21,662 nucleotides of DNA from a virus. Below are positions 1-16,126 of this stretch, piece after piece. The number at the start of each line of letters is the position of its first letter. The first letter of the stretch is position 1. The notes below the pieces were generated by a model, which worked only from the letters and a program-made list of their open reading frames with translations, searched no databases and was not told where the DNA came from. Made by a program: the position numbers and the translations under genes. The DNA lies in the IMG/VR virus record IMGVR_UViG_3300000101_000219, positions 1 through 21,662 of that record. One strand, written 5' to 3'.

Positions 1-395
1 GTATGTATCAGATATATCAACAATTTACAATTGAGCATTTTGTAAACCCAATATTTCAATCTTGGTTAGAGATGGCAATATCTACGGGTCGTATTAATCT
101 ACCAATAGGTAAGTTTGATAAATTCTCTAATTCAGTAAACTTTATACCAAGAAGTTTTGCTTGGATTGACCCATTAAAAGAAATGCAATCAAATGTACTT
201 GGTTTACAAAACGGAACAATAAGTTATTCAGATATAGCTGCTGCTTATGGTAGAGATACTGAAGAGCTATTTGAACAACATCAAAAAGAGATTGAACTAG
301 CTAAACAATATGGCATTGAACTGGCATATCAACCATTTGGTCAGAAACAGCCAGTAGAAGCCAATATCAATGGTGGAGATCAAGACGATGAGTAA
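1..395 (+). CDS. Portal protein, lambda gpB type (C-terminal part, cut by window edge)
   Basis: This is the C-terminal end of a phage portal protein, the ring at the capsid vertex through which DNA is packaged and to which the tail attaches. The frame is already open at base 1, and the first visible Met (base 3) is probably internal. About 130 residues are visible. The segment with FIPRSFAWIDPLKE followed by a long helical, Glu/Gln-rich end (ELFEQHQKEIELAKQYG) is typical of the lambda-type portal family (Phage_portal_2). The last residues are polar (NGGDQDDE). The gene overlaps the following head gene by 8 bases, which suggests translational coupling. The upstream terminase genes expected in such phages lie outside the window. 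The family is assigned by reading motifs, not by a search. Confidence 0.85.
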   Translation, partial: MYQIYQQFTIEHFVNPIFQSWLEMAISTGRINLPIGKFDKFSNSVNFIPRSFAWIDPLKEMQSNVLGLQNGTISYSDIAAAYGRDTEELFEQHQKEIELAKQYGIELAYQPFGQKQPVEANINGGDQDDE

Positions 396-2694
396 ACCAA
401 CTCAAAGTATGAAATCTGAAGCTAGAAAGGGTTTGGATTGGAGAAAAGAACATGGAAGAGGTGGCACTAGAATTGGTGCTGAGAGAGCTAATCAGATTTT
501 AAATGGCGAAAACCTTTCTGATGAAACTATAAAAAGGATGTATAGTTTTTTTAGCAGACATGAGGTTGACAAAAAAGCTGAAGGATTTAGACAGGGAGAG
601 AAAGGCTACCCATCAAACGGAAGAATAGCATGGGCATTATGGGGTGGAGATGCTGGATTTAGCTGGTCAAGAAAGCTAGTAAATCAAATGAAAAATGAAA
701 AAAGTTTTGACTTGAAAGAGTTAGAAAAACATCCTTTATTAACAAATGAAGAGGAGAAATCTATGAATAAAGAAGATAGACATATCCTTAATGTTACTGA
801 GACTGACAATACTGTTATTGTTGAGTTTGAGAAGCATGAGGATGTAGAACATGAAGGTGAAGAATTGGAAGCAACTGATGAAGTCTCTATGGATGAATCA
901 AGTGAAGAAGAAAGGAAAGTAATCGATATGCCTATGAAATTTAGGACTATTGATCTATCTAAACATTCTTATCTTGATGAAGAAAAGAGAATAGTTCGTA
1001 TAGGAGTTTCTAGTGAAGAACCTGTAGAACGTAGTTTTGGCATGGAAGTGCTAGGACATTCTGCTGAAGATATAAACATGGAGTTTATTTCATCAGGCAG
1101 AGCACCATTATTACTTGACCATGATATGGAAAAGCAAATTGGTGTGATTGAAGAATTCAAATTGGATGAGACTGCAAAGAGGACAACTGCAGTAGTTAGA
1201 TTTGGTAAATCTGCTTTAGCTCGTGAAGTATTTGAAGATGTAGCTGATGGTATACGAATGAACATTTCAGTTGGTTACAGAGTCGATAAATTAACAAGAA
1301 TGAACAAAGACGATGAGACTTACTACAAAGCTCAATGGACACCTATGGAAGTTTCTTCCGTAAGCGTTCCTGCTGACCAGTCAAGACTTGTTGGGGTTGG
1401 TCGTTCTAAAGATAAACAAACTATTAATAATATAGAGGTAATAACAATGGAAAATAAAGATATTAATCTTGACGAAGTTAGAACTCAGACTATTGATGAA
1501 GCTAAAGCTGAATTTAAAAGAAACTCAAAAGAGATCATAGATTTAGCAGCTAGACACAATAAAAGAGATTTAGCTGACAAAGCAATTGCAGATGGCGTAT
1601 CTGTAGAAGAATTTAGAGGTGTATTATTGGAAAATATTTCTAACAATCAACCACTAGAAACTCCTTCAGAAATCGGTATGAGCAAAGAAGAAGTCAGAGA
1701 CTTTAGCTTAATCAAAGCTATAAGAGCAATGGCAAACCCTTCAGATAGAAAAGCACAAGAAGATGCAGCATTTGAATTTGAATGTTCTGCTGAAGCTGCT
1801 AGACAGTATGGCAAAGATGCACAAGGCATTATGCTTCCTGCTGAAGTTCTAAGAAGCTGGGGTAAAAGAGACTTAAACACATCTGATGATTCAACTCTAG
1901 TAGCTGAAGATTACAGAGGAAATGACTTTATTGATATACTCAGAAATGAGTCATCAGTAATGCAAGCTGGAGCAACAGTTTTAAGAGGATTACAAGGAAA
2001 TGTTGTAATACCTAAGAAAACTGCTGGTGCTTCTGCTGGTTGGATTGCAACTGAAGGTGCAGCTTCTGCTGAGTCTGAGTTCACTGCTGGTTCAGTAACT
2101 ATGACTCCTAAAGTAATTGGTGCTCATACTGATGTAACAAGACTTTTACTACAACAATCTTCTTTAGATGTTGAGAACTTAATCAGAGATGACCTAACAA
2201 AATCAATCGCTACTGCAATTGACTTAGGTGCTTTAGCTGGTTCAGGTTCAAGTGGTCAACCAACAGGTATTGCTAATACTTCAGGTATTAACACTACTAC
2301 TTTTGCTGCTGCTAACCCAACATGGGCTGAGATCGTAGCTATGGAAAGTGCTGTTGCTAATGACAACGCATTAAATGGTTCTTTAGGTTACATTTGTAGA
2401 CCTGCTGACTTTGGTACTTTAAAAACAACTGAAAAGGCTACTAATACTGCTCAGTTTGTTGTTTCTCCTGACAATAGCATGAATGGCTATAATGTTGTCA
2501 GAAGTAATCAAGTAACAAGTGGTGACTTCTACTTTGGTAACTTTGCAGACCTATTAATTGGTATGTATGGTGGTTTAGACATTACTGTTGACCCTTACGC
2601 ATTATCAACATCAGGCGGAGTAAGAATTGTTGCTCTTCAAACTGTTGATGTAGCTGTAAGACATGCAGTATCTTTCTGTAAATCTTCAGACTAA
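388..2694 (+). CDS. Fused head protein: unassigned N-terminal domain, HK97-type prohead protease and major capsid protein
   Basis: One 768-residue frame contains three parts. Residues 1-110 form a compact domain with GRGGTRIGAERA, FFSRHEVDKK and GYPSNGRIAWALWGGDAG, which I recall as common but unnamed in phage head genes. Residues about 182-340 look like the HK97 prohead protease (U35/S78 type): LLLDHD carries the likely catalytic His245 and NISVGYRV the likely Ser294. From about residue 354 on is an HK97-fold capsid protein: a helical, charged delta-like region, then WIATEG, VTMTPKVIGAHTDVTRLLLQQ, GSGSSGQPTGIAN and a C-terminal LQTVDVAVRHAVSF. The protease should cut scaffold or delta segments during prohead maturation. 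I chose ATG 388 because GGAG at 375-378 sits 9 bases upstream; ATG 370 is also possible. In-frame internal starts at 763 and 1447 have their own binding sites, so separate protease and capsid chains may also be made. Confidence 0.88.
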   Translation: MSKPTQSMKSEARKGLDWRKEHGRGGTRIGAERANQILNGENLSDETIKRMYSFFSRHEVDKKAEGFRQGEKGYPSNGRIAWALWGGDAGFSWSRKLVNQMKNEKSFDLKELEKHPLLTNEEEKSMNKEDRHILNVTETDNTVIVEFEKHEDVEHEGEELEATDEVSMDESSEEERKVIDMPMKFRTIDLSKHSYLDEEKRIVRIGVSSEEPVERSFGMEVLGHSAEDINMEFISSGRAPLLLDHDMEKQIGVIEEFKLDETAKRTTAVVRFGKSALAREVFEDVADGIRMNISVGYRVDKLTRMNKDDETYYKAQWTPMEVSSVSVPADQSRLVGVGRSKDKQTINNIEVITMENKDINLDEVRTQTIDEAKAEFKRNSKEIIDLAARHNKRDLADKAIADGVSVEEFRGVLLENISNNQPLETPSEIGMSKEEVRDFSLIKAIRAMANPSDRKAQEDAAFEFECSAEAARQYGKDAQGIMLPAEVLRSWGKRDLNTSDDSTLVAEDYRGNDFIDILRNESSVMQAGATVLRGLQGNVVIPKKTAGASAGWIATEGAASAESEFTAGSVTMTPKVIGAHTDVTRLLLQQSSLDVENLIRDDLTKSIATAIDLGALAGSGSSGQPTGIANTSGINTTTFAAANPTWAEIVAMESAVANDNALNGSLGYICRPADFGTLKTTEKATNTAQFVVSPDNSMNGYNVVRSNQVTSGDFYFGNFADLLIGMYGGLDITVDPYALSTSGGVRIVALQTVDVAVRHAVSFCKSSD
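751..765 (+). promoter_or_regulatory. Internal ribosome binding site and in-frame start for the protease part
   Basis: GAGGAGA at 751-757 lies 6 bases (counting from the GGAG core) before an in-frame ATG at 763. Translation from here would begin MNKEDRHIL and omit the N-terminal domain, giving a protease plus capsid product. The position falls exactly at a linker between domains, which makes chance less likely. Use in vivo is inferred. Confidence 0.5.
1435..1449 (+). promoter_or_regulatory. Internal ribosome binding site and in-frame start for the capsid part
   Basis: GAGGT at 1435-1439 lies 7 bases before an in-frame ATG at 1447. The product would begin MENKDINLDEVRTQ, right after the protease domain ends, and would be about 415 residues, a usual length for an HK97-fold capsid precursor with its delta region. 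This would let the phage make many capsid chains per protease. Confidence 0.6.
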
Positions 2695-6622: not shown

Positions 6623-7221
6623 TGAGCGGTGCATTTCCAACAGACCCAAACTTTAGGTCAATAAACTTTCAAGACAACAGGCCTACATTACTGAATCAAA
6701 CACTATCGGGCAAAAAGTCTGCAAGACAAATAGGTGCTCAATACTTTTCATTCACAGTTCAAATGCCACCAATACAACAAGAGAAAGCACAGGAGATATT
6801 TGCTTTCTTACAAAAACAAAAAGGTGCTATTGGTGACTTTACAATACAAGCACCATTAGATAATTTAGGTGCAAGTAAAAACGAAGCAGACATACTTGTA
6901 AACACCGCACATTCAGCAGGTGCTGAGACTGTAAATATGGATGGTTTTTCAGCAACTACAGGCGTTCTCAAAGCTGGTGATCTAATTAAATTCGCGAATC
7001 ATTCAAAAGTATATATGGTGCAAGAAAATGAAAATGCATCAGGCGGTGCTGCTACTGTAAAAATATCTCCAAATCTTGTTAGCTCTCTAGCAAATAATGA
7101 AGCTGTAACTGTAAACAAGCCATCTTTTACTGTATATCTTGAAAATAATGATATTATGTATAGTACAGATGCTAGTGGTTTTTACAGCATTTCATTTGAT
7201 GTTAGAGAGGTAATAACATAA
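6622..7221 (+). CDS. Probable distal tail / minor tail protein
   Basis: A 199-residue protein directly after the tape measure gene. It starts SGAFPTDPNFRSINFQDNRPTL and contains GAQYFSFTVQMPPIQQEKAQ, a fold-like segment shared by tail-tip ring proteins that place short helices after a strand, and a C-terminal strand pattern FYSISFDVREVIT. Lambda gpM and the gene transfer agent distal tail protein occupy the same place. It probably forms the ring joining the tail tube to the tip hub. The middle part (residues about 90-165) looks like an extra beta domain. Start and stop both use TAATG overlaps. The role is inferred mainly from position. Confidence 0.55.
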   Translation: MSGAFPTDPNFRSINFQDNRPTLLNQTLSGKKSARQIGAQYFSFTVQMPPIQQEKAQEIFAFLQKQKGAIGDFTIQAPLDNLGASKNEADILVNTAHSAGAETVNMDGFSATTGVLKAGDLIKFANHSKVYMVQENENASGGAATVKISPNLVSSLANNEAVTVNKPSFTVYLENNDIMYSTDASGFYSISFDVREVIT

Positions 7222-7769
7222 TGCCAAGAAGTTTATCAACAGATTTACAAGCACAAGTATCATCACAACAAACTAAAACAGCATTTCTTGTTGAATTGGG
7301 TTTATCTACAACTGTAAGATTAACTGATTGGTATTCAGATGTTACTTATGATTCTAATTCTTATGAAGCTGGCGGCTCTTTTCTAACAGTGGATTCAGTT
7401 GTGGAAACTGGTCAATTGCAAATAGATGAAATAAATCTTGGTTTTTCAAATGTTACCAACCAAGTAAGAAGTTTAGTTCAAAGTGGTGCATTTACAGATA
7501 AAACAGTAGAAATAAATTTAGCTTACTTTAATGAGAATGAAACTTTGGTAGGTGCTATAAATTATTTCACAGGGCAAATTAGAAGTGTATCTATCTCAGA
7601 AAGTATAGATAATTCTGTGTTAGCAATGACTGTGGCTTCTCATTGGGCAAATTGGAATTTAACAAAAGGTAGGCATTATTCAGACGAATCTCAGAAATCA
7701 GCTTATACAGGTGATAGAGGTTTAGAGTTTGCCACACAAGTAAAATCAGACGTAAGGTGGGGTAGTTAA
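7221..7769 (+). CDS. Tail-tip protein, gpL / DUF2163-like
   Basis: A 182-residue protein with a strand-rich body (TAFLVELGLSTTVRLTDWY, VTYDSNSYEAGGSFLTVDSV, GQLQIDEINLGFSNVTNQ, GQIRSVSISES) and a C-terminal stretch HWANWNLTKGRHYSDESQK then GDRGLEF. This is the pattern of lambda gpL and of DUF2163 hub proteins of alphaproteobacterial gene transfer agents, which connect the distal ring to the gpJ-like hub. No clear iron-sulfur-type C-terminal Cys cluster as in lambda gpL is seen. The gene order distal protein, this protein, gpJ-like hub agrees. An NlpC/P60 (gpK-like) gene normally found next is absent. Confidence 0.6.
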   Translation: MPRSLSTDLQAQVSSQQTKTAFLVELGLSTTVRLTDWYSDVTYDSNSYEAGGSFLTVDSVVETGQLQIDEINLGFSNVTNQVRSLVQSGAFTDKTVEINLAYFNENETLVGAINYFTGQIRSVSISESIDNSVLAMTVASHWANWNLTKGRHYSDESQKSAYTGDRGLEFATQVKSDVRWGS

Positions 7770-10700
7770 TGTTTAATGCTATAGTTGGTTTTTTTAGAGA
7801 AATAGGCGGTGCAATAGCATCAGTATGGGCTGATGCTAAAACCTTAGAAAAAATAAACATGGTATTTATGGCAGTTACTACTGCTGTAGGTGTTAAAGGA
7901 TTCTTACAAGCAAGGCAAATGATGTCTAAAGGCCAAGACATCATGGCTAACAAAACTGCTGCTGGTGGCAAGATACCAGTCATATATGGAACAAGAAGGG
8001 TTGGTGCTCAAATTGTTTATATGGACACAGCACAAAACAGGTCAAAGGATTTGTTTGTTGTTTATGCAATATCAGTTGGTGAATGTGAAGAGATACTTGG
8101 CAGAACTATTGAGATAGATGGCAATAGTATTCTTGATGGCAATATCTATAAAGGTGGTGGATATGTGGGCTCAGACAAAATATCATCAGGTTTAAATGGT
8201 TCTTTAAACACCGCATCACAAGTTGGTGATAATCAGTATTCACAAGCAGGAACACTGGGAACAGACCCAACAAAAAGATATTCCTTTGTATTTAACTTAC
8301 ATCATGGTGCATCTAGTCAAACAGCAGACCCAATGCTTAGAGCATCTATACCTACTGAGTGGACTGCTAACCATAAGCTAAATGGCATTTGTTATATAGC
8401 AGCTTCTTTTGATTATGATAAAAAAGGAATGTATAAAGGCGTTCCACAAATAACAGTACAGGTTAAAGGTAAAAAGGTTTTTGACCCAAGAGATAGCTCT
8501 ACTAAATGGTCATCTAACCCAGCCTTATGTTTCTTAGATTACATACAAAATGATGAGTATGGTAAAGGTTTAGCAACATCACAAATTAACATGACTACTA
8601 TCAGTGCTGCTGCAACTGCATGTGAAGTAGAAGTAGATCAACCTTACTATAATGACACCTATCAAGACTTAACTTGGAGTGGAACTGCTGGTAATGACTT
8701 TATTGTTATTAATGATAATGATGACTGGTGGCAAAACAAAGTAGATGAAGTTATAGATATAAGAGATTCTAATGATGCAAGTATATTTTCTAATGCTGTA
8801 AGTATTACAGGTTCTACAAGATATCAATACTATGATTCTGTGCAAGAAAACAGGTTATATATAGATGACGTTTTAGCAAATAGTTATACAAATGAAGCAG
8901 GAAACGCTAGAGCTAAAGTTAAAAGATTTCATTGTAATGGTTATATTGACACTAACAAGAATGTCATGGATAACGCTAAAGAGCTTCTTGCAAATATGCG
9001 AGGTATCTTTCTTTATATTGATGGTAAGTATGAATTACAAATAGAAGATACAGGAACATCTACATTTAGCATCACAGATGACCACATCATAGCTGATGCT
9101 GGTATATCAGTTGATTATGGTAATAAAGATAAAAAGGCAAATAAAGTTGTTATTGAATTCTTTAATGCTAACAAGAAATACGAACTTGATACAGCTACAG
9201 TTTTGCATGATGCATCACCTGAGTATTATTCAGATGATGGTGAGGTATTAGAAGTTAAAGCTGAATTCCCTTATGTAACAGACCCATACATTGCTTACAA
9301 TATGGGTAAGGCTATCTTAACTAGAAGTAGAAATCAGACCACTATGCAGTTCTTAGGAACTCCTGAGATGTATAAATTAAATGTGGGTGATATTGTTGAT
9401 CTTACCTACTTGCCTTTAAGTTTTAATGTAAAGGTTTGCAGAGTAGAAGCATTAGAATTACAAGCAAATGGTCTTGTATCTGTTAGTTTAATTGAATACT
9501 TTGATGTTTATACATGGGAAGTACCAGCTCAAGAGCCAGTAGAAATAATAGCCCATCCGCCAAGCATAGGTGCTTTGCATCCACCTGAAGCAAATAGCAT
9601 TGTATTCACAGACACAGATGCTTCGTCAATCAATAGACCCACTTTAACTTGGACTGAGCCAACTGATTTTCCTGTAAGGCAATATAGGGTAGATGTAGTT
9701 GATAGCTCGGCAAACAATGTATTTAGTAAAATAGTAGATACACCATCAGTTGATTTAGCCTTTTTACCTAAAGCAGCAAACTATGAAGCAAGTATTACTT
9801 CTTTTAATGGCGTTGGAATTGAATCTAACGCATCTACCAAAACATTTACTATTGCAGATGACCCAGTAAAAACTACTGAAGTTGAAATGAATGGTGTTAC
9901 CTTGTCAACAGTTGAGAGTTATGGAACTGTAGCAGGGCAATCAGGTAATTGGGTTAAATTTACAAATCAAGTAGCTTTTATAGATAATGTAGATTTTGAA
10001 GACCCTGTTGTTTTTAACGATAGTGTTCAATTTGAAAATGCACCAACTTTTGCAGATGGTCTTAGCGGTCAAGGATTATTCAATATATCTGCTGGCTCAA
10101 TACAGTTTGGCTCTTACACACCATCAACCACAACTAATAATCTTTACAACGTAGGCGGTTCTTTATACTGGAATGGTCAAGCACTAGGAACTGGTACTGG
10201 TGATATTACAGCAGTAGTAGCAGGTACTAACTTAAATGGTGGTGGTACTTCAGGTTCAGTTACTTTAAATCTTGATTCTACTATTACAGGCAATCACACC
10301 TTTTCTAACAACCTAATTATCGGTGGTGACTTAACAGTTCAAGGCACTACAACAACTGTAAACACAGATGATCTAAACGTAAAAGACAAAAACATTACCC
10401 TAAACTATTCAACAGGGGATTCATCAGCTTCAGCTAATGGTGCAGGTATTACCATTCAAGATGCTGTAAGTGTAGGTAATGATGCAACTATTCTTTGGAA
10501 TACTAATTTTGATAATTTTGATTTTTCACACACTATAAGAATTCCAGACAGTCAAAAGGTAGAGTTTGGTGCTGATGCAGATTTACAAATTTACCATGAG
10601 TCTGGAAACAACCATAGTGTCATAAAAGAAACAGGTACAGGTAACTTAAAAATCCAAGCAGCCAATATTGAAATGCAGATTCCAAATGGCACGCAGAATT

Positions 10701-13700
10701 ATTTACAAGCTATCAATGGCGGTGCAGTAACCTTATACAACAATGGTTCACCTAAAATCGCTACAACCTCAAGCGGTGCTAATATTTCGGGAACGCTAAC
10801 AAGTGATGGTTTGACTGTAGAGGCTGGTATTGCACAACTACAATTAATAGATACGGGTGTGTCTGGCTCAACAAAACTAAGAACTGCAAACGCCCAAACA
10901 TGGCTTGAAGTAGACCCTGATAACGTACAAGCGTCATCTGGCTTTGCTACATATATTGATGGAAAGAGGTTTTTTAATATTGAAGATACAGGAGACATCT
11001 CATTCTATGACGATACAGGTACATCACAAAACCTAAAATGGGATGCTAGTGCAGATACCTTAAACTTTGTAGATAATGCAAAGGCACAGTTTGGTGCAGG
11101 TAATGATTTACAGATTTACCATGATGGAAATAACAGTCGTGTAGAAGATACAGGGACAGGTGGATTACGTCTTATAGGTGGTAACTTTGTATCTCTACAA
11201 AGCACTTCAGGTGAGAACATGGTTGTTGCTAATGAAAATGGTGCAGTAACCTTATACCACAACAATAGTGCAAAACTAGCCACAACCTCAACAGGCATAG
11301 ACGTAACAGGAACAGTTACGAGTGATGGTTTGACTGTTGATAGTGGCGGAACAAATATAGGAATTGTTACTAAATCCACAGACCAATTTGCATTTATTGG
11401 CTTTGAAGATAACACTTCTTCTACTTCTTCTGTTTATATAGGTGCAGATGGTAACGACTTTATTGCTAGAGCAAATAGCATAACAAGATTTAGGGCAGCC
11501 TCCAACGGAGACATCTCCTTTTACGAAGATACAGGAACTACAGCTAAGTTGTTTTGGGATGCAAGTTCTGAGAGGTTGGGTTTGGGTACAACTTCACCCG
11601 AAGAAAAAATGCAATTATTATCATCGGGCAATACTTTAATTAGAGTAACTTCAGGAACTTCAAGTATTGCAGGTATTGATTTTGGTGACACTGATGATAC
11701 TGATGTTGGAAGAATTAGATATTTAAACTCTAGCAACGCTTTACAATTCAGCACACAAGCAACAGAACGCATGAGAATAGACTCATCAGGACGATTGGGT
11801 ATTGGTACAACCAGTCCTTCTGAACAGTTAGATGTATCTGGTAATGTTTTATTTGGTTCTGGAGTAGGTTCTGGTGATGCAGTTATTAACGTAGGAAGAG
11901 GTAGAACTGCTGATGGTAATGTGTATATAGATTTACATTCTGATATAGCTACTTATACAGATTATGGTCTTAGACTTATTAAACAATCAGGAGCTAATGG
12001 TGCTTCTAGTATCTTACATAGAGGAACAGGAACATTTACTATTGAAACAGATGAAGCTGCTGCTATTAGATTTAATACAAATTCCGTAGAAAGAATGAGA
12101 ATAGACTCATCAGGTAGGTTAAACATGATGAGCAGTGCAGGTGCTTCTCCTGTTCTGTATCACGGCAACGATTTAACCAGTACTAGTCCCACTACAAACT
12201 TATCATTTGGTAATGAGCAAAATGGTGCTTTGCTTATATATACAAATAGTACAGAACGTCTAAGAATAGACTCATCAGGTAATGTGTTGGTGGGTAAGAC
12301 TAGTGCAACCGCTACAAACCTAGGATGTCAAATTGAAAATGATGGTCAAATAAAAACTACAACTAACGGACAATCTTCGCTAACTCTAAACCGAAAAACA
12401 TCCGATGGTGCTATAGCTATATTCCAAAAAGATGGATCAACAGTTGGAAATATTGGTTCACACACTTCTACTACTACAAATATGTATATTGGTAGTGTTG
12501 ATTCAGGGCTATACTTTGATAGCACTAATAATAGAATTTCGCCCTATTATGTAAATAATAACTCTTTACCTAATGGCGGTATTTCATTAGGTGGAAATAG
12601 CAACCGATTCCAAGACCTTTATCTAGCAGGTACTGCAAACTTCGGAAGCCTATCAGATGGCACAATAACCATAACAGGCTTTGTAGATCAAGATGATATG
12701 TCCTCTGATTCTGCAACGCTATTGCCAACACAACAATCTGTTAAGGCTTATGTAGATGCAAACAGCTTTACTATAAACAACAATGCAGACAATAGAATTA
12801 TTACTGGTACTGCAACCGCAGGAACTTTAAATGCAGAAACCACATTAACCTATGGTACTACAGGTGCAGACTTAGCAATTACAGGTGGCTCTATAGGTAG
12901 TGCTCCACCAATACTAAGATTAGAAGATGTAGGCAGTTCAGGCAAATTAGCTGAACTAAACCACATTACAGGAACTACAACCCTAATCTCAAGAAATGCT
13001 ACAAGTAATGGTGTTATAAAGTTTGCAGGTCATAACGGAACATCAGAAACTGAATATGGAAGGTTTGATGCATCAGGCAACGTTGGAATTGGTACAAGTT
13101 CGCCTTCAGCACTCTTGCATGTTAAAAGCACAGGCAATGGTGAAATAGAAGTTGAAAGAGCTAGTGGTGCTTTAATTAATTTACAAGCACAATCTGCAAG
13201 AGGTGTTATAGGTACAGACTCAAACCATGAACTACAATTAAAAACTAATGGTTCAGGCAGAATGACCATCAATACTGCTGGAAATATTGGAATAGGCACA
13301 ACTGCTCCAAGTTCACAGTTACACTTATCTAAAGCGGGTGGCACGTTAATTAAATTAGGAACTTCTATTAATACTTCTGAAATTGAAGCAAGAGAAGTTG
13401 GTGGCGGTCAAAGTCTTATACTCAGTTCTGTTAATTCAGCAGACCATTTAGTAATTGATGGAGCAGGAAAAGTTGGAATAGGCACAAGTTCGCCTGCTGA
13501 GTCTTTACACACCACAGGTAATATTAGATTTGGTGACTCAGCACCTGCTGAGCTTTATACAAATAGCTCTGAACTAAGATTAGGTGTTGATAGAAATAAC
13601 GATAATGGTACATCAAATATTACTTTCTATGTTAATAATAGTGAATCAGCTAGAATAGATGCATCAGGTAATTTGTTGGTGGGTAAGACGAGCAGTTCTA

Positions 13701-16126
13701 CAGGAGTTGTTGGTGCTAGATTTAGTGCAAATGGATTTTCTAACATAACAAGAGATGGCGGTGAATGTTTTAACTTAAATAGACTTACATCAGACGGAAC
13801 TATTATTGATTTTAGAAAGGACTCAGCAACAGTTGGAAGTATTGGTACTGGAGCTGGTGTTTTAGGTATCGGACAAGGTACTGGTAATCTAGGATTTTTT
13901 AACGCAACTGTTGTTCCTATGAGCAATGTAAGTGGTGGTGCTTCTAATGGACTTGTTGATTTAGGCACAGGTAATAGAAGATTCAAAGACCTTCACCTTT
14001 CAGGCACAGCTAACTTTGGAAGCACGACTAGTTTGTATGAAGGTGCAGGTGGAGATGCTTTCTTTAAAAACACTAATGCTGGTGCTGATTTATTTTTAGA
14101 CTCAGGTAGACGTATACGTTTTACTGCAAATGGCTCAGAAAGAATGCGTATAGACTCATCAGGTCGTGTTGGAATTGGTACAAGTTCTCCAGCTCAAAAA
14201 CTTCATATTGTTAGTACAGACGGCTCTAATATAATATTAAATTCAAATACTGCAGCAGAAAATAATGGTATTTTTATGACAGAAGCTCCATCTGCAAGCC
14301 CATACACGAACGGAGCATACGTTGCTTACGATGGTGCAAATAACGCTTTTAAAATAAAGACTGGTACAACAACATTATCCACAAGACTTACAATACTAAG
14401 AGATAACGGCAACGTTGGAATTGGGACAGATTCGCCAGATGCTAATCTTCATGTTCATGCAACTAGCGGTGATGGGAAGATACGAATAACAGGCGATAAT
14501 ATAACCAACTCAGGCGGTTCAATAAAAGGGTTTAATAATGGATTAGCTTTTAATGTAGCACCTTCAGGTGGTGGTAGTGAGTCTGAAGTTTTGCGAATTA
14601 ATGGCTCACAAAATGTTGGTATTGGTACAGCTTCGCCAAGTGAAAAGCTAAGTGTTGTAGGTGATGCTAGTATAAGCACGACAGGAAACAGTACGGGATT
14701 GCGTATTATAACATCAGCAACAGGCGAGGGTTATTTAATTTTTGGTGATACTGCGGACAATTCCATGGGTGGTATGGCGTATAGTAACAGTACAAATGCA
14801 CTAATGTTTGATTCTAATAATGCAGAACGCATGAGAATAGACTCATCAGGCAATGTGTTGGTGGGAACTACATCGGCTTCTATTTCAGGTGCAAATACCA
14901 CAGGTGTTGTTTTATCAGCAAATGCTGCTGCACAATTTTCAAGAAATGGTGGTCACTCTTTAGATATTAATAGAACACAAGCAGGAGAACTTGTTAGATT
15001 TAGAAGTGCAGGAACAATAGTTGGAAGTATTGGTGTTATAAATACCAACAACCTTACGATAGGTGGCTCTGTTTCAAACCATTCAGGCCTTCAATTTGGT
15101 ACTGCTGTAATTACGCCTATGAGAGCAGGTTCAGAAAGTGATGCTCAAATTGATATAGGTTTCTCTAACGCTAGATTCAAAGACCTCTACCTTTCAAATA
15201 ATATTAAAGCTCATGGTGATTCATCACCTACTCTTGATTTAAAAGACACTACTAATAATTGTAATCTTCTGGCTTATGCTCAGAACTCCACAGCAAATAT
15301 TGGAACTTATAGTAATCATCCTTTAATTTTTGATACTAATAGTTCAGAACGCATGAGAATAGACTCATCAGGTCGTTTAATTGTTGGCGGTACAACAGCA
15401 GGTGAAACTGGTGCTACAACTATTTATCCTAATGGTAATATTGCATCAGCTTCTATAACAGCAACAGGTGATGGTGTATTTAACTTCTTTAAAACCGAAA
15501 CATTTAATCCAGTATTAACAGCAAATGATAGTCAATCTGATACAGGGCAAATCATAGCAGTTCAAATTGGTGGAACTACCAAAGGTAACATAGGTATAAA
15601 TAGTGCTACTGGTAATGATATGTATATTGCAAGTGGTACTACAAGTAGTGCAGGTGTTGGTCTTAGATTTATAGATTATCAAGTTACAAACATACAACCA
15701 TGCAGAGGAAATGGCTCTACTCTTGATAATGTAATTGATTTGGGTTCTGTGGGTGCAAGGTTTGATGATATTTACGCAACTAATGGAACTATCAACACTT
15801 CTGATGAAAACGAAAAACAAGACATACAAGCCTTAACAGATGCAGAGCAAAGAGTTGCTACAGCATGTAAAGGTTTAATAAGAAGATTTAGATGGCAAGA
15901 TTCAGTAGCAGAAAAAGATAATAATCCTGATTCTGATGAAACAGCTAGATATCATTTTGGAGTCATAGCTCAAGACTTACAAGATGCATTTACAGCAGAA
16001 GGATTAAATGCAAGTGACTATGGTATGTTTATATCTAGCACTTGGACTGATGATGATGGTGTAGAACAAACGAGACTTGGTGTAAGATATAACGAATTGC
16101 TAAGTTTTATAATAACAACAATATAG
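7769..16126 (+). CDS. Giant tail hub and fibre protein: gpJ-like N-terminus, repetitive fibre, S74 autoprocessing C-terminus
   Basis: A 2785-residue protein, about 2.5 times the length of lambda gpJ. Residues 1-50 are hydrophobic and helical. Residues about 65-600 resemble gpJ/phage-tail_3 hub proteins (GKIPVIYGTRRVGAQIVYMD, NPALCFLDYI, LLANMRGIFLYIDGKYEL, NVGDIVDLTY). Residues about 610-700 look like a fibronectin type III domain. From about 730 to 2650 comes a fibre of repeats: two LQIYH modules, eight GIGTxSP motifs, about seven RMRIDSSG-type motifs and four long LVGKTS...DLYLSGTANFGS modules. The end is a Peptidase_S74 chaperone: SDENEK holds likely Ser2678 and Lys2683, the same spacing as the Ser-Lys dyad of endosialidase tailspikes. 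Self-cleavage before Ser2678 would release 108 residues after trimer folding. It should sit at the tail tip and recognise the host. It starts by a TAATG overlap. Confidence 0.9.
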   Translation: MFNAIVGFFREIGGAIASVWADAKTLEKINMVFMAVTTAVGVKGFLQARQMMSKGQDIMANKTAAGGKIPVIYGTRRVGAQIVYMDTAQNRSKDLFVVYAISVGECEEILGRTIEIDGNSILDGNIYKGGGYVGSDKISSGLNGSLNTASQVGDNQYSQAGTLGTDPTKRYSFVFNLHHGASSQTADPMLRASIPTEWTANHKLNGICYIAASFDYDKKGMYKGVPQITVQVKGKKVFDPRDSSTKWSSNPALCFLDYIQNDEYGKGLATSQINMTTISAAATACEVEVDQPYYNDTYQDLTWSGTAGNDFIVINDNDDWWQNKVDEVIDIRDSNDASIFSNAVSITGSTRYQYYDSVQENRLYIDDVLANSYTNEAGNARAKVKRFHCNGYIDTNKNVMDNAKELLANMRGIFLYIDGKYELQIEDTGTSTFSITDDHIIADAGISVDYGNKDKKANKVVIEFFNANKKYELDTATVLHDASPEYYSDDGEVLEVKAEFPYVTDPYIAYNMGKAILTRSRNQTTMQFLGTPEMYKLNVGDIVDLTYLPLSFNVKVCRVEALELQANGLVSVSLIEYFDVYTWEVPAQEPVEIIAHPPSIGALHPPEANSIVFTDTDASSINRPTLTWTEPTDFPVRQYRVDVVDSSANNVFSKIVDTPSVDLAFLPKAANYEASITSFNGVGIESNASTKTFTIADDPVKTTEVEMNGVTLSTVESYGTVAGQSGNWVKFTNQVAFIDNVDFEDPVVFNDSVQFENAPTFADGLSGQGLFNISAGSIQFGSYTPSTTTNNLYNVGGSLYWNGQALGTGTGDITAVVAGTNLNGGGTSGSVTLNLDSTITGNHTFSNNLIIGGDLTVQGTTTTVNTDDLNVKDKNITLNYSTGDSSASANGAGITIQDAVSVGNDATILWNTNFDNFDFSHTIRIPDSQKVEFGADADLQIYHESGNNHSVIKETGTGNLKIQAANIEMQIPNGTQNYLQAINGGAVTLYNNGSPKIATTSSGANISGTLTSDGLTVEAGIAQLQLIDTGVSGSTKLRTANAQTWLEVDPDNVQASSGFATYIDGKRFFNIEDTGDISFYDDTGTSQNLKWDASADTLNFVDNAKAQFGAGNDLQIYHDGNNSRVEDTGTGGLRLIGGNFVSLQSTSGENMVVANENGAVTLYHNNSAKLATTSTGIDVTGTVTSDGLTVDSGGTNIGIVTKSTDQFAFIGFEDNTSSTSSVYIGADGNDFIARANSITRFRAASNGDISFYEDTGTTAKLFWDASSERLGLGTTSPEEKMQLLSSGNTLIRVTSGTSSIAGIDFGDTDDTDVGRIRYLNSSNALQFSTQATERMRIDSSGRLGIGTTSPSEQLDVSGNVLFGSGVGSGDAVINVGRGRTADGNVYIDLHSDIATYTDYGLRLIKQSGANGASSILHRGTGTFTIETDEAAAIRFNTNSVERMRIDSSGRLNMMSSAGASPVLYHGNDLTSTSPTTNLSFGNEQNGALLIYTNSTERLRIDSSGNVLVGKTSATATNLGCQIENDGQIKTTTNGQSSLTLNRKTSDGAIAIFQKDGSTVGNIGSHTSTTTNMYIGSVDSGLYFDSTNNRISPYYVNNNSLPNGGISLGGNSNRFQDLYLAGTANFGSLSDGTITITGFVDQDDMSSDSATLLPTQQSVKAYVDANSFTINNNADNRIITGTATAGTLNAETTLTYGTTGADLAITGGSIGSAPPILRLEDVGSSGKLAELNHITGTTTLISRNATSNGVIKFAGHNGTSETEYGRFDASGNVGIGTSSPSALLHVKSTGNGEIEVERASGALINLQAQSARGVIGTDSNHELQLKTNGSGRMTINTAGNIGIGTTAPSSQLHLSKAGGTLIKLGTSINTSEIEAREVGGGQSLILSSVNSADHLVIDGAGKVGIGTSSPAESLHTTGNIRFGDSAPAELYTNSSELRLGVDRNNDNGTSNITFYVNNSESARIDASGNLLVGKTSSSTGVVGARFSANGFSNITRDGGECFNLNRLTSDGTIIDFRKDSATVGSIGTGAGVLGIGQGTGNLGFFNATVVPMSNVSGGASNGLVDLGTGNRRFKDLHLSGTANFGSTTSLYEGAGGDAFFKNTNAGADLFLDSGRRIRFTANGSERMRIDSSGRVGIGTSSPAQKLHIVSTDGSNIILNSNTAAENNGIFMTEAPSASPYTNGAYVAYDGANNAFKIKTGTTTLSTRLTILRDNGNVGIGTDSPDANLHVHATSGDGKIRITGDNITNSGGSIKGFNNGLAFNVAPSGGGSESEVLRINGSQNVGIGTASPSEKLSVVGDASISTTGNSTGLRIITSATGEGYLIFGDTADNSMGGMAYSNSTNALMFDSNNAERMRIDSSGNVLVGTTSASISGANTTGVVLSANAAAQFSRNGGHSLDINRTQAGELVRFRSAGTIVGSIGVINTNNLTIGGSVSNHSGLQFGTAVITPMRAGSESDAQIDIGFSNARFKDLYLSNNIKAHGDSSPTLDLKDTTNNCNLLAYAQNSTANIGTYSNHPLIFDTNSSERMRIDSSGRLIVGGTTAGETGATTIYPNGNIASASITATGDGVFNFFKTETFNPVLTANDSQSDTGQIIAVQIGGTTKGNIGINSATGNDMYIASGTTSSAGVGLRFIDYQVTNIQPCRGNGSTLDNVIDLGSVGARFDDIYATNGTINTSDENEKQDIQALTDAEQRVATACKGLIRRFRWQDSVAEKDNNPDSDETARYHFGVIAQDLQDAFTAEGLNASDYGMFISSTWTDDDGVEQTRLGVRYNELLSFIITTI
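10570..11346 (+). repeat. Two-copy LQIYH fibre module
   Basis: Two diverged modules of about 250 bases, at about 10570-10825 and 11094-11346, encode the same order of motifs: DLQIYH, a Gly/Asn turn, ETGTGNL or EDTGTGGL, GAVTLYNN or GAVTLYHN, then TSDGLTVEAG or TSDGLTVDSG. They are protein-level repeats of the tail fibre shaft, probably from duplication. Confidence 0.7.
11577..15372 (+). repeat. Dispersed GIGTSSP and RMRIDSSG coding repeats in the fibre
   Basis: A 26-base unit encoding ERMRIDSSG occurs identically at 11765-11790, 14825-14850 and 15347-15372, and with few changes at 12089-12114, 12254-12279 and 14138-14163; a more diverged copy ends near 13668. GIGTxSP motifs begin near 11577, 11797, 13087, 13288, 13477, 14170, 14420 and 14620. 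The exact DNA identity in spaced copies suggests recent duplication or recombination within the gene. Confidence 0.8.
12278..15800 (+). repeat. Four-copy LVGKTS...DLYLSGTANFGS fibre module
   Basis: Four modules of about 350-420 bases begin near 12280, 13670, 14850 and 15375. Each runs LVGkTS or similar, an A/G-rich segment, LNRxTSDG-like strand, a GSIG turn, a GLxF strand, an asparagine-rich loop and RFxDLYLS. The first two share a near-identical 23-base start (12278-12300 and 13667-13689). The fourth is the most diverged and leads into the S74 domain. Confidence 0.7.

Follow-up and report, generated by a model that had tools for sequence, protein, structure and literature searches.

In phage lambda, C and Nu3 share one frame, and an internal start yields an abundant assembly partner that lacks the protease. 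The overlap of the two genes has been described (PMC8508860). The herpesvirus genes UL26 and UL26.5 are nested in frame and encode a protease-scaffold and an abundant scaffold, respectively (PMC2949831), and in HK97 the protease (gp4) and the capsid protein (gp5) come from separate, adjacent genes (PMC8508860). In a further arrangement, represented by phrog_617, by NF045541 and by phages MD8, Murka and S1, protease and capsid protein are fused in one gene. These fusions are described as one protein, without mention of internal starts: papers on MD8, Murka and the Rhodobacter RcC phages call the gene single and its product one propeptide or a fused protein. In our search of the literature on protease-capsid fusions, which covered few subscription journals, an internal start was nowhere reported, and the database records leave an internal capsid start in these fusions unmentioned.

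Here we analysed a fused gene of this kind in a 21.7-kb virus record from a marine phage (the whole stretch is referred to as the window), whose virus group is akin to the cultured roseophages CRP-811 and CRP-406. With lambda C/Nu3 the gene shares an in-frame internal start that carries a Shine-Dalgarno (SD) sequence and that, judged here from sequence, is conserved beyond its surroundings. It differs in what is nested: in lambda this is the scaffold, with the capsid protein E encoded by a separate gene, whereas here it would be the capsid protein with its delta domain. The UL26.5 product is likewise a scaffold rather than a capsid protein and is made from its own promoter and transcript, whereas the signal here is an internal ribosome-binding site. 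HK97 has two genes where this virus has one fused gene, but the domain order is shared, and the predicted product of ATG 1447 would be the counterpart of gp5.

Domain order and start signals of the fused gene

The gene occupies a single open reading frame (Table 1); elsewhere in the window, a frame of 2785 aa (7769-16126) takes up more than one third of the sequence. Residues 190-772 of the fused product match phrog_617, a prohead protease/major capsid fusion family, with an E-value of 2.1e-147 across both protease and capsid. For the capsid part, PF05065 scored 146.3 bits (cut-off 24.2; residues 517-771) and TIGR01554 scored 103.3, also above its cut-off (27.5). For the protease, PF04586 (peptidase S78) matched the segment 763-1446 with 26.9 bits against a cut-off of 21, while the prohead protease profile TIGR01543 scored under its own cut-off. 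The NCBIfam model of protease/capsid fusions, NF045541, gave 137.6 bits, under its curated cut-off of 525; the gene is a relative that falls outside that model.

Table 1. Features of the fused protease-capsid gene (window positions).
Feature	Coordinates	Strand	Evidence
Fused frame: N-terminal module, prohead protease, delta domain, HK97-type capsid protein	370..2694	+	Open frame; PF04586, PF05065, phrog_617
Likeliest full-length start, GGAG 375-378 + ATG 388	375..390	+	SD energy; homology starts near here
N-terminal helical module, part of phrog_2859 (no assigned function)	388..702	+	Profile match; model residues 1-105
Candidate internal start 1, GAGGAG 751-756 + ATG 763; putative protease-capsid product of 643 aa	751..765	+	SD -9.1; Met and SD conservation
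S78-type prohead protease core	985..1365	+	PF04586; model residues 200-326; the family's conserved H and S invariant
Hypervariable disordered linker, protease to delta domain	1366..1482	+	Model residues 327-365, pLDDT <50; alignments
Candidate internal start 2, GAGGT 1435-1439 + ATG 1447; putative free capsid precursor of 415 aa	1435..1449	+	SD -7.1; most open context; conservation
Delta (scaffold-like) helical domain	1468..1809 (extent approximate)	+	Helices from model residue 361
HK97-type capsid domain	1918..2682	+	PF05065 residues 517-771; TIGR01554 above cut-off

An AlphaFold2 model of the fused product, built on 31 relatives (mean pLDDT 64), predicts that the N-terminal module is helical and is followed by a disordered stretch around M132, a small pair of strands, an extended acidic region, again disordered, and the protease core; after this come a second disordered stretch with M360 and then the delta-domain helices. 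Both internal start codons are thus located in disordered linkers of the model. An earlier note, made from the sequence alone, had placed the two starts exactly at domain borders. This description fits the capsid start, as M360 (nt 1447) precedes the first delta-domain helix by only 7 residues and so sits, in the model, at a domain border. It fits only partly for M132 (nt 763), which lies about 70 residues ahead of the protease core with the strand pair between; the model puts ATG 763 at the end of the N-terminal module, short of the protease border.

The same note's observation that both ATGs are in frame behind SD sequences at normal spacing was borne out: 6 nt separate GGAG from ATG 763-765, and 7 nt separate GAGGT from ATG 1447-1449. 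The computed anti-SD duplex energies, -9.1 kcal/mol at ATG 763 and -7.1 kcal/mol at ATG 1447, compare with +0.4 to -8.2 kcal/mol at those starts of other genes in the window that were tested, and the stretch AGAGGTAATAACA ahead of ATG 1447 (1434-1446) recurs ahead of the gene start at 7221. At the 5' end of the frame, ATG 388 is preceded by GGAG at 9-nt spacing (-6.4 kcal/mol) and ATG 370 has only -0.5 kcal/mol; from these signals, ATG 388 rather than ATG 370 is most likely the true gene start. Of the three starts, ATG 1447 lies in the most open context (mean unpaired 0.62, local fold -7.4 kcal/mol). The SD of ATG 763 is stronger, yet its context is more folded (mean unpaired 0.29). Because the SD of the first internal start exceeds that of the second, SD strength alone does not predict an excess of capsid protein; the openness around ATG 1447 is compatible with such an excess, though no proof of it.

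The capsid start in homologues and split relatives

We assembled 102 representatives, less than 80% identical, from viral contigs, isolate phages and bacterial genomes, excluding 19 loci whose protease motif escaped the search pattern. In each homologue the first in-frame ATG after the VPAD motif, which marks the end of the protease, was taken blindly as the capsid ATG. According to the earlier note, internal initiation would be refuted if fused homologues lacked the binding sites or ATGs; this test came out in its favour. We found an in-frame ATG 12-70 residues past VPAD, in the divergent protease-capsid linker, in 102/102 homologues, and 74% of these ATGs had an SD energy of -5 or below. The signals exceed chance: among 1400 further in-frame ATGs from these genes, only 10% reach that level (p = 3.5e-37, indicative in view of the common ancestry of the sequences). 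As a positive control, downstream gene starts, located crudely, reached -5 in 39% of cases.

Several further observations indicate that it is the nucleotide signal that is kept. In a positional plot the SD signal forms one narrow peak at -13, where 72% reach -4 or lower, with next to nothing on either side, and the SD begins in all three codon phases among the 102 homologues. The pooled signal is stronger than after synonymous recoding (z -8.5); sequence by sequence, the synonymous null gave p < 0.05 in just 10/102 homologues, and it is the pooled signal that carries the argument. The pattern persists in clusters of less than 50% and less than 45% identity. Close relatives vary in the sequence, length and codon register of the linker ahead of M360 (IEVITM, FKEITM, TKVRIM, EIIM) but keep the Met and, nearly always, an SD at ribosomal distance. 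Thus, ATG and SD persist at the capsid start while the linker, its register and its amino acids change, as the earlier proposal had predicted. Rarity of Met in the linker was dropped as support, being biased by the choice of the first ATG.

At the capsid ATG, the SD is weak in roughly one in four representatives. The Met is kept without a strong SD in cyanophages S-CBS1, S-CBS3 and S-LBS1, in two Acinetobacter prophages, in Murka and in a few others. SD pairing is less relied on in cyanobacteria, which may explain the cyanophage exceptions. L307 lacks an SD and L335 an ATG; a search of the SD-less members for GTG or TTG starts revealed no consistent alternative.

The same internal SD and ATG occur in the fused genes of Stenotrophomonas phage S1, VP882, phiHAP-1, RcCronus, a Helicobacter prophage and DCP80. 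Faecalibacterium phage Epona and Dulem virus 34 have two separate genes for protease and capsid protein, and the capsid gene starts 13-15 nt past the protease stop with SD energies of -11.5 and -12.2; the Epona start aligns to the internal Met of S1, and that of Dulem virus 34 is at most one column off. A survey of this sister clade found 59 split and 16 fused loci. In the split loci the protease stops 31-56 residues past VPAD, and most capsid starts, with SD energies of -9 to -13, lie within about 20 nt of the stop; in the fused loci the internal ATG is mostly 19-46 residues past VPAD. Since both fall at the same place and carry an SD, the simplest reading is that the internal ATG of the fused genes corresponds to the start codon of the capsid gene in their split relatives. 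Together, the conservation of SD and ATG and the position of the capsid start in the split relatives leave little doubt that ATG 1447 is a genuine capsid start.

Two side observations concern other fused genes. The Helicobacter prophage BK070157 (L255) has two adjacent in-frame ATGs, at codons 183 and 193, each with a strong SD (-8.7 and -8.5), at the protease-capsid border. MD8 (L409, 4371-6452) and F10 (L410, 4387-6468) carry a different kind of fusion, of a ClpP-like protease to the capsid protein, with candidate internal starts at M220 (-6.9) and M185 (-11.4).

The probable protease-side start and the N-terminal region

The segment that follows M132, (D/E)RHI.NV.ETD, was found in 21 representatives. 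A Met directly precedes it in 17/21, and 88% of these 17 have an SD of -5 or below (z -4.5), in line with the conservation that the earlier note had anticipated for this site; the Met is absent in 4/21. As at the capsid start, the SD peaks at -13. The cultured phage CRP-823 (L084) carries an additional T in the N-terminal part, which disrupts the frame ahead of this start, and the frame is also broken there in metagenomic locus L037; everything downstream is open in both. If real, these breaks require an internal start, but they may be sequencing errors. Together, these data support ATG 763 as a probable start, more narrowly than ATG 1447. In L033 an in-frame stop, either real or a sequencing error, lies just past this start. 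ATG 928 (MPMKF, dG -5.6) was considered as a protease start and rejected, as it is absent in relatives such as L063, L111 and L114. Synonymous-site conservation was set aside as support: in close relatives, diversity at start 1 is 0.077 versus 0.235 overall, which ranks only 53rd of 687 windows, and start 2 shows no such conservation because its linker varies.

The N-terminal region itself is changeable. The first 120 residues of the fused product partially match phrog_2859, and this module (388-702 in the window) belongs to a set of swappable N-terminal parts, which also includes DUF5824-like, Hva1_TUDOR and RPYPNEHAARL segments (L081-L083, L085, L116, L129, L133, L144). Between the N-terminal module and the ATG 763 site, some genes carry an insert of some 85 residues that otherwise near-alike genes lack; the longer form is seen in L030-L033, L038-L048 and others. 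SD sequences at in-frame ATGs are commoner in the N-terminal region (37%) than in protease and capsid (9%). PADLOC returned no match for the N-terminal modules.

Proposed nested initiation and its rivals

We conclude that translation of a single mRNA probably begins at three nested in-frame starts, ATG 388, 763 and 1447, and put the probability of this reading at roughly 0.85. Initiation at ATG 388 would give a module-protease-capsid chain, at ATG 763 a protease-capsid chain, and at ATG 1447 a free capsid precursor of delta domain and capsid, equivalent to HK97 gp5. This free precursor would build the shell; fewer fused chains would co-assemble via their capsid part and thereby carry the protease into the prohead, where it would release itself and remove the delta domains. 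The sequences show the architecture, the start signals with their conservation, and the agreement of these signals with the capsid gene start in split relatives; that all three products are made, in what proportions, and how they assemble and are cleaved is inferred from HK97 and lambda biology. An excess of capsid protein is plausible. A more speculative extension, which we regard as doubtful, is that the nested starts act as a device for graded loading: a small number of full-length chains would bring the N-terminal modules into the prohead as capsid-borne cargo, to be freed by the protease and perhaps packed or ejected with the DNA, and the two internal starts would ensure that shell subunits far outnumber protease and cargo.

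The published descriptions of the gene product as one propeptide or fused protein suggest a different account, in which the full chain alone is made and the protease cuts within the linkers, the Met and the Lys/Glu residues belonging to cleavage sites. HK97-type proteases do cut capsid precursors; however, what is conserved here is at the nucleotide level, an SD in three codon phases that encodes differing residues at a fixed distance from the ATG, and split relatives have a gene start at that very place. We therefore consider this account improbable. The use of the site as a gene start in the split sister clade could also mean that SD and ATG are left over from a time when the two genes were separate and now do little in the fused one. 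Neutral drift would erase such a relic, yet the site persists in fused homologues less than 45% identical despite a scrambled linker, and we rate this possibility as very improbable. Least credible of all is that the SD-like sites, located in linkers just ahead of folded domains, pause ribosomes between domains to aid folding: pausing has no need of an ATG 5-9 nt downstream, yet one is present in 102/102 homologues, and the SD signal is restricted to ribosomal spacing.

What is new in the nested-start reading is that the shell protein itself is nested in the protease gene, unlike the nested scaffolds of lambda and the herpesviruses. If this reading is true, many capsid genes of phages and prophages, mostly of Proteobacteria, that are annotated as one fusion in fact code for a nested set of two or three proteins, and the question of how a fusion of protease and capsid achieves the right stoichiometry would have a simple answer. 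It would also tell which N-terminus to use in expressing or modelling such capsid proteins, and the split and fused relatives would provide a natural series for studying how phages set protease dosage.
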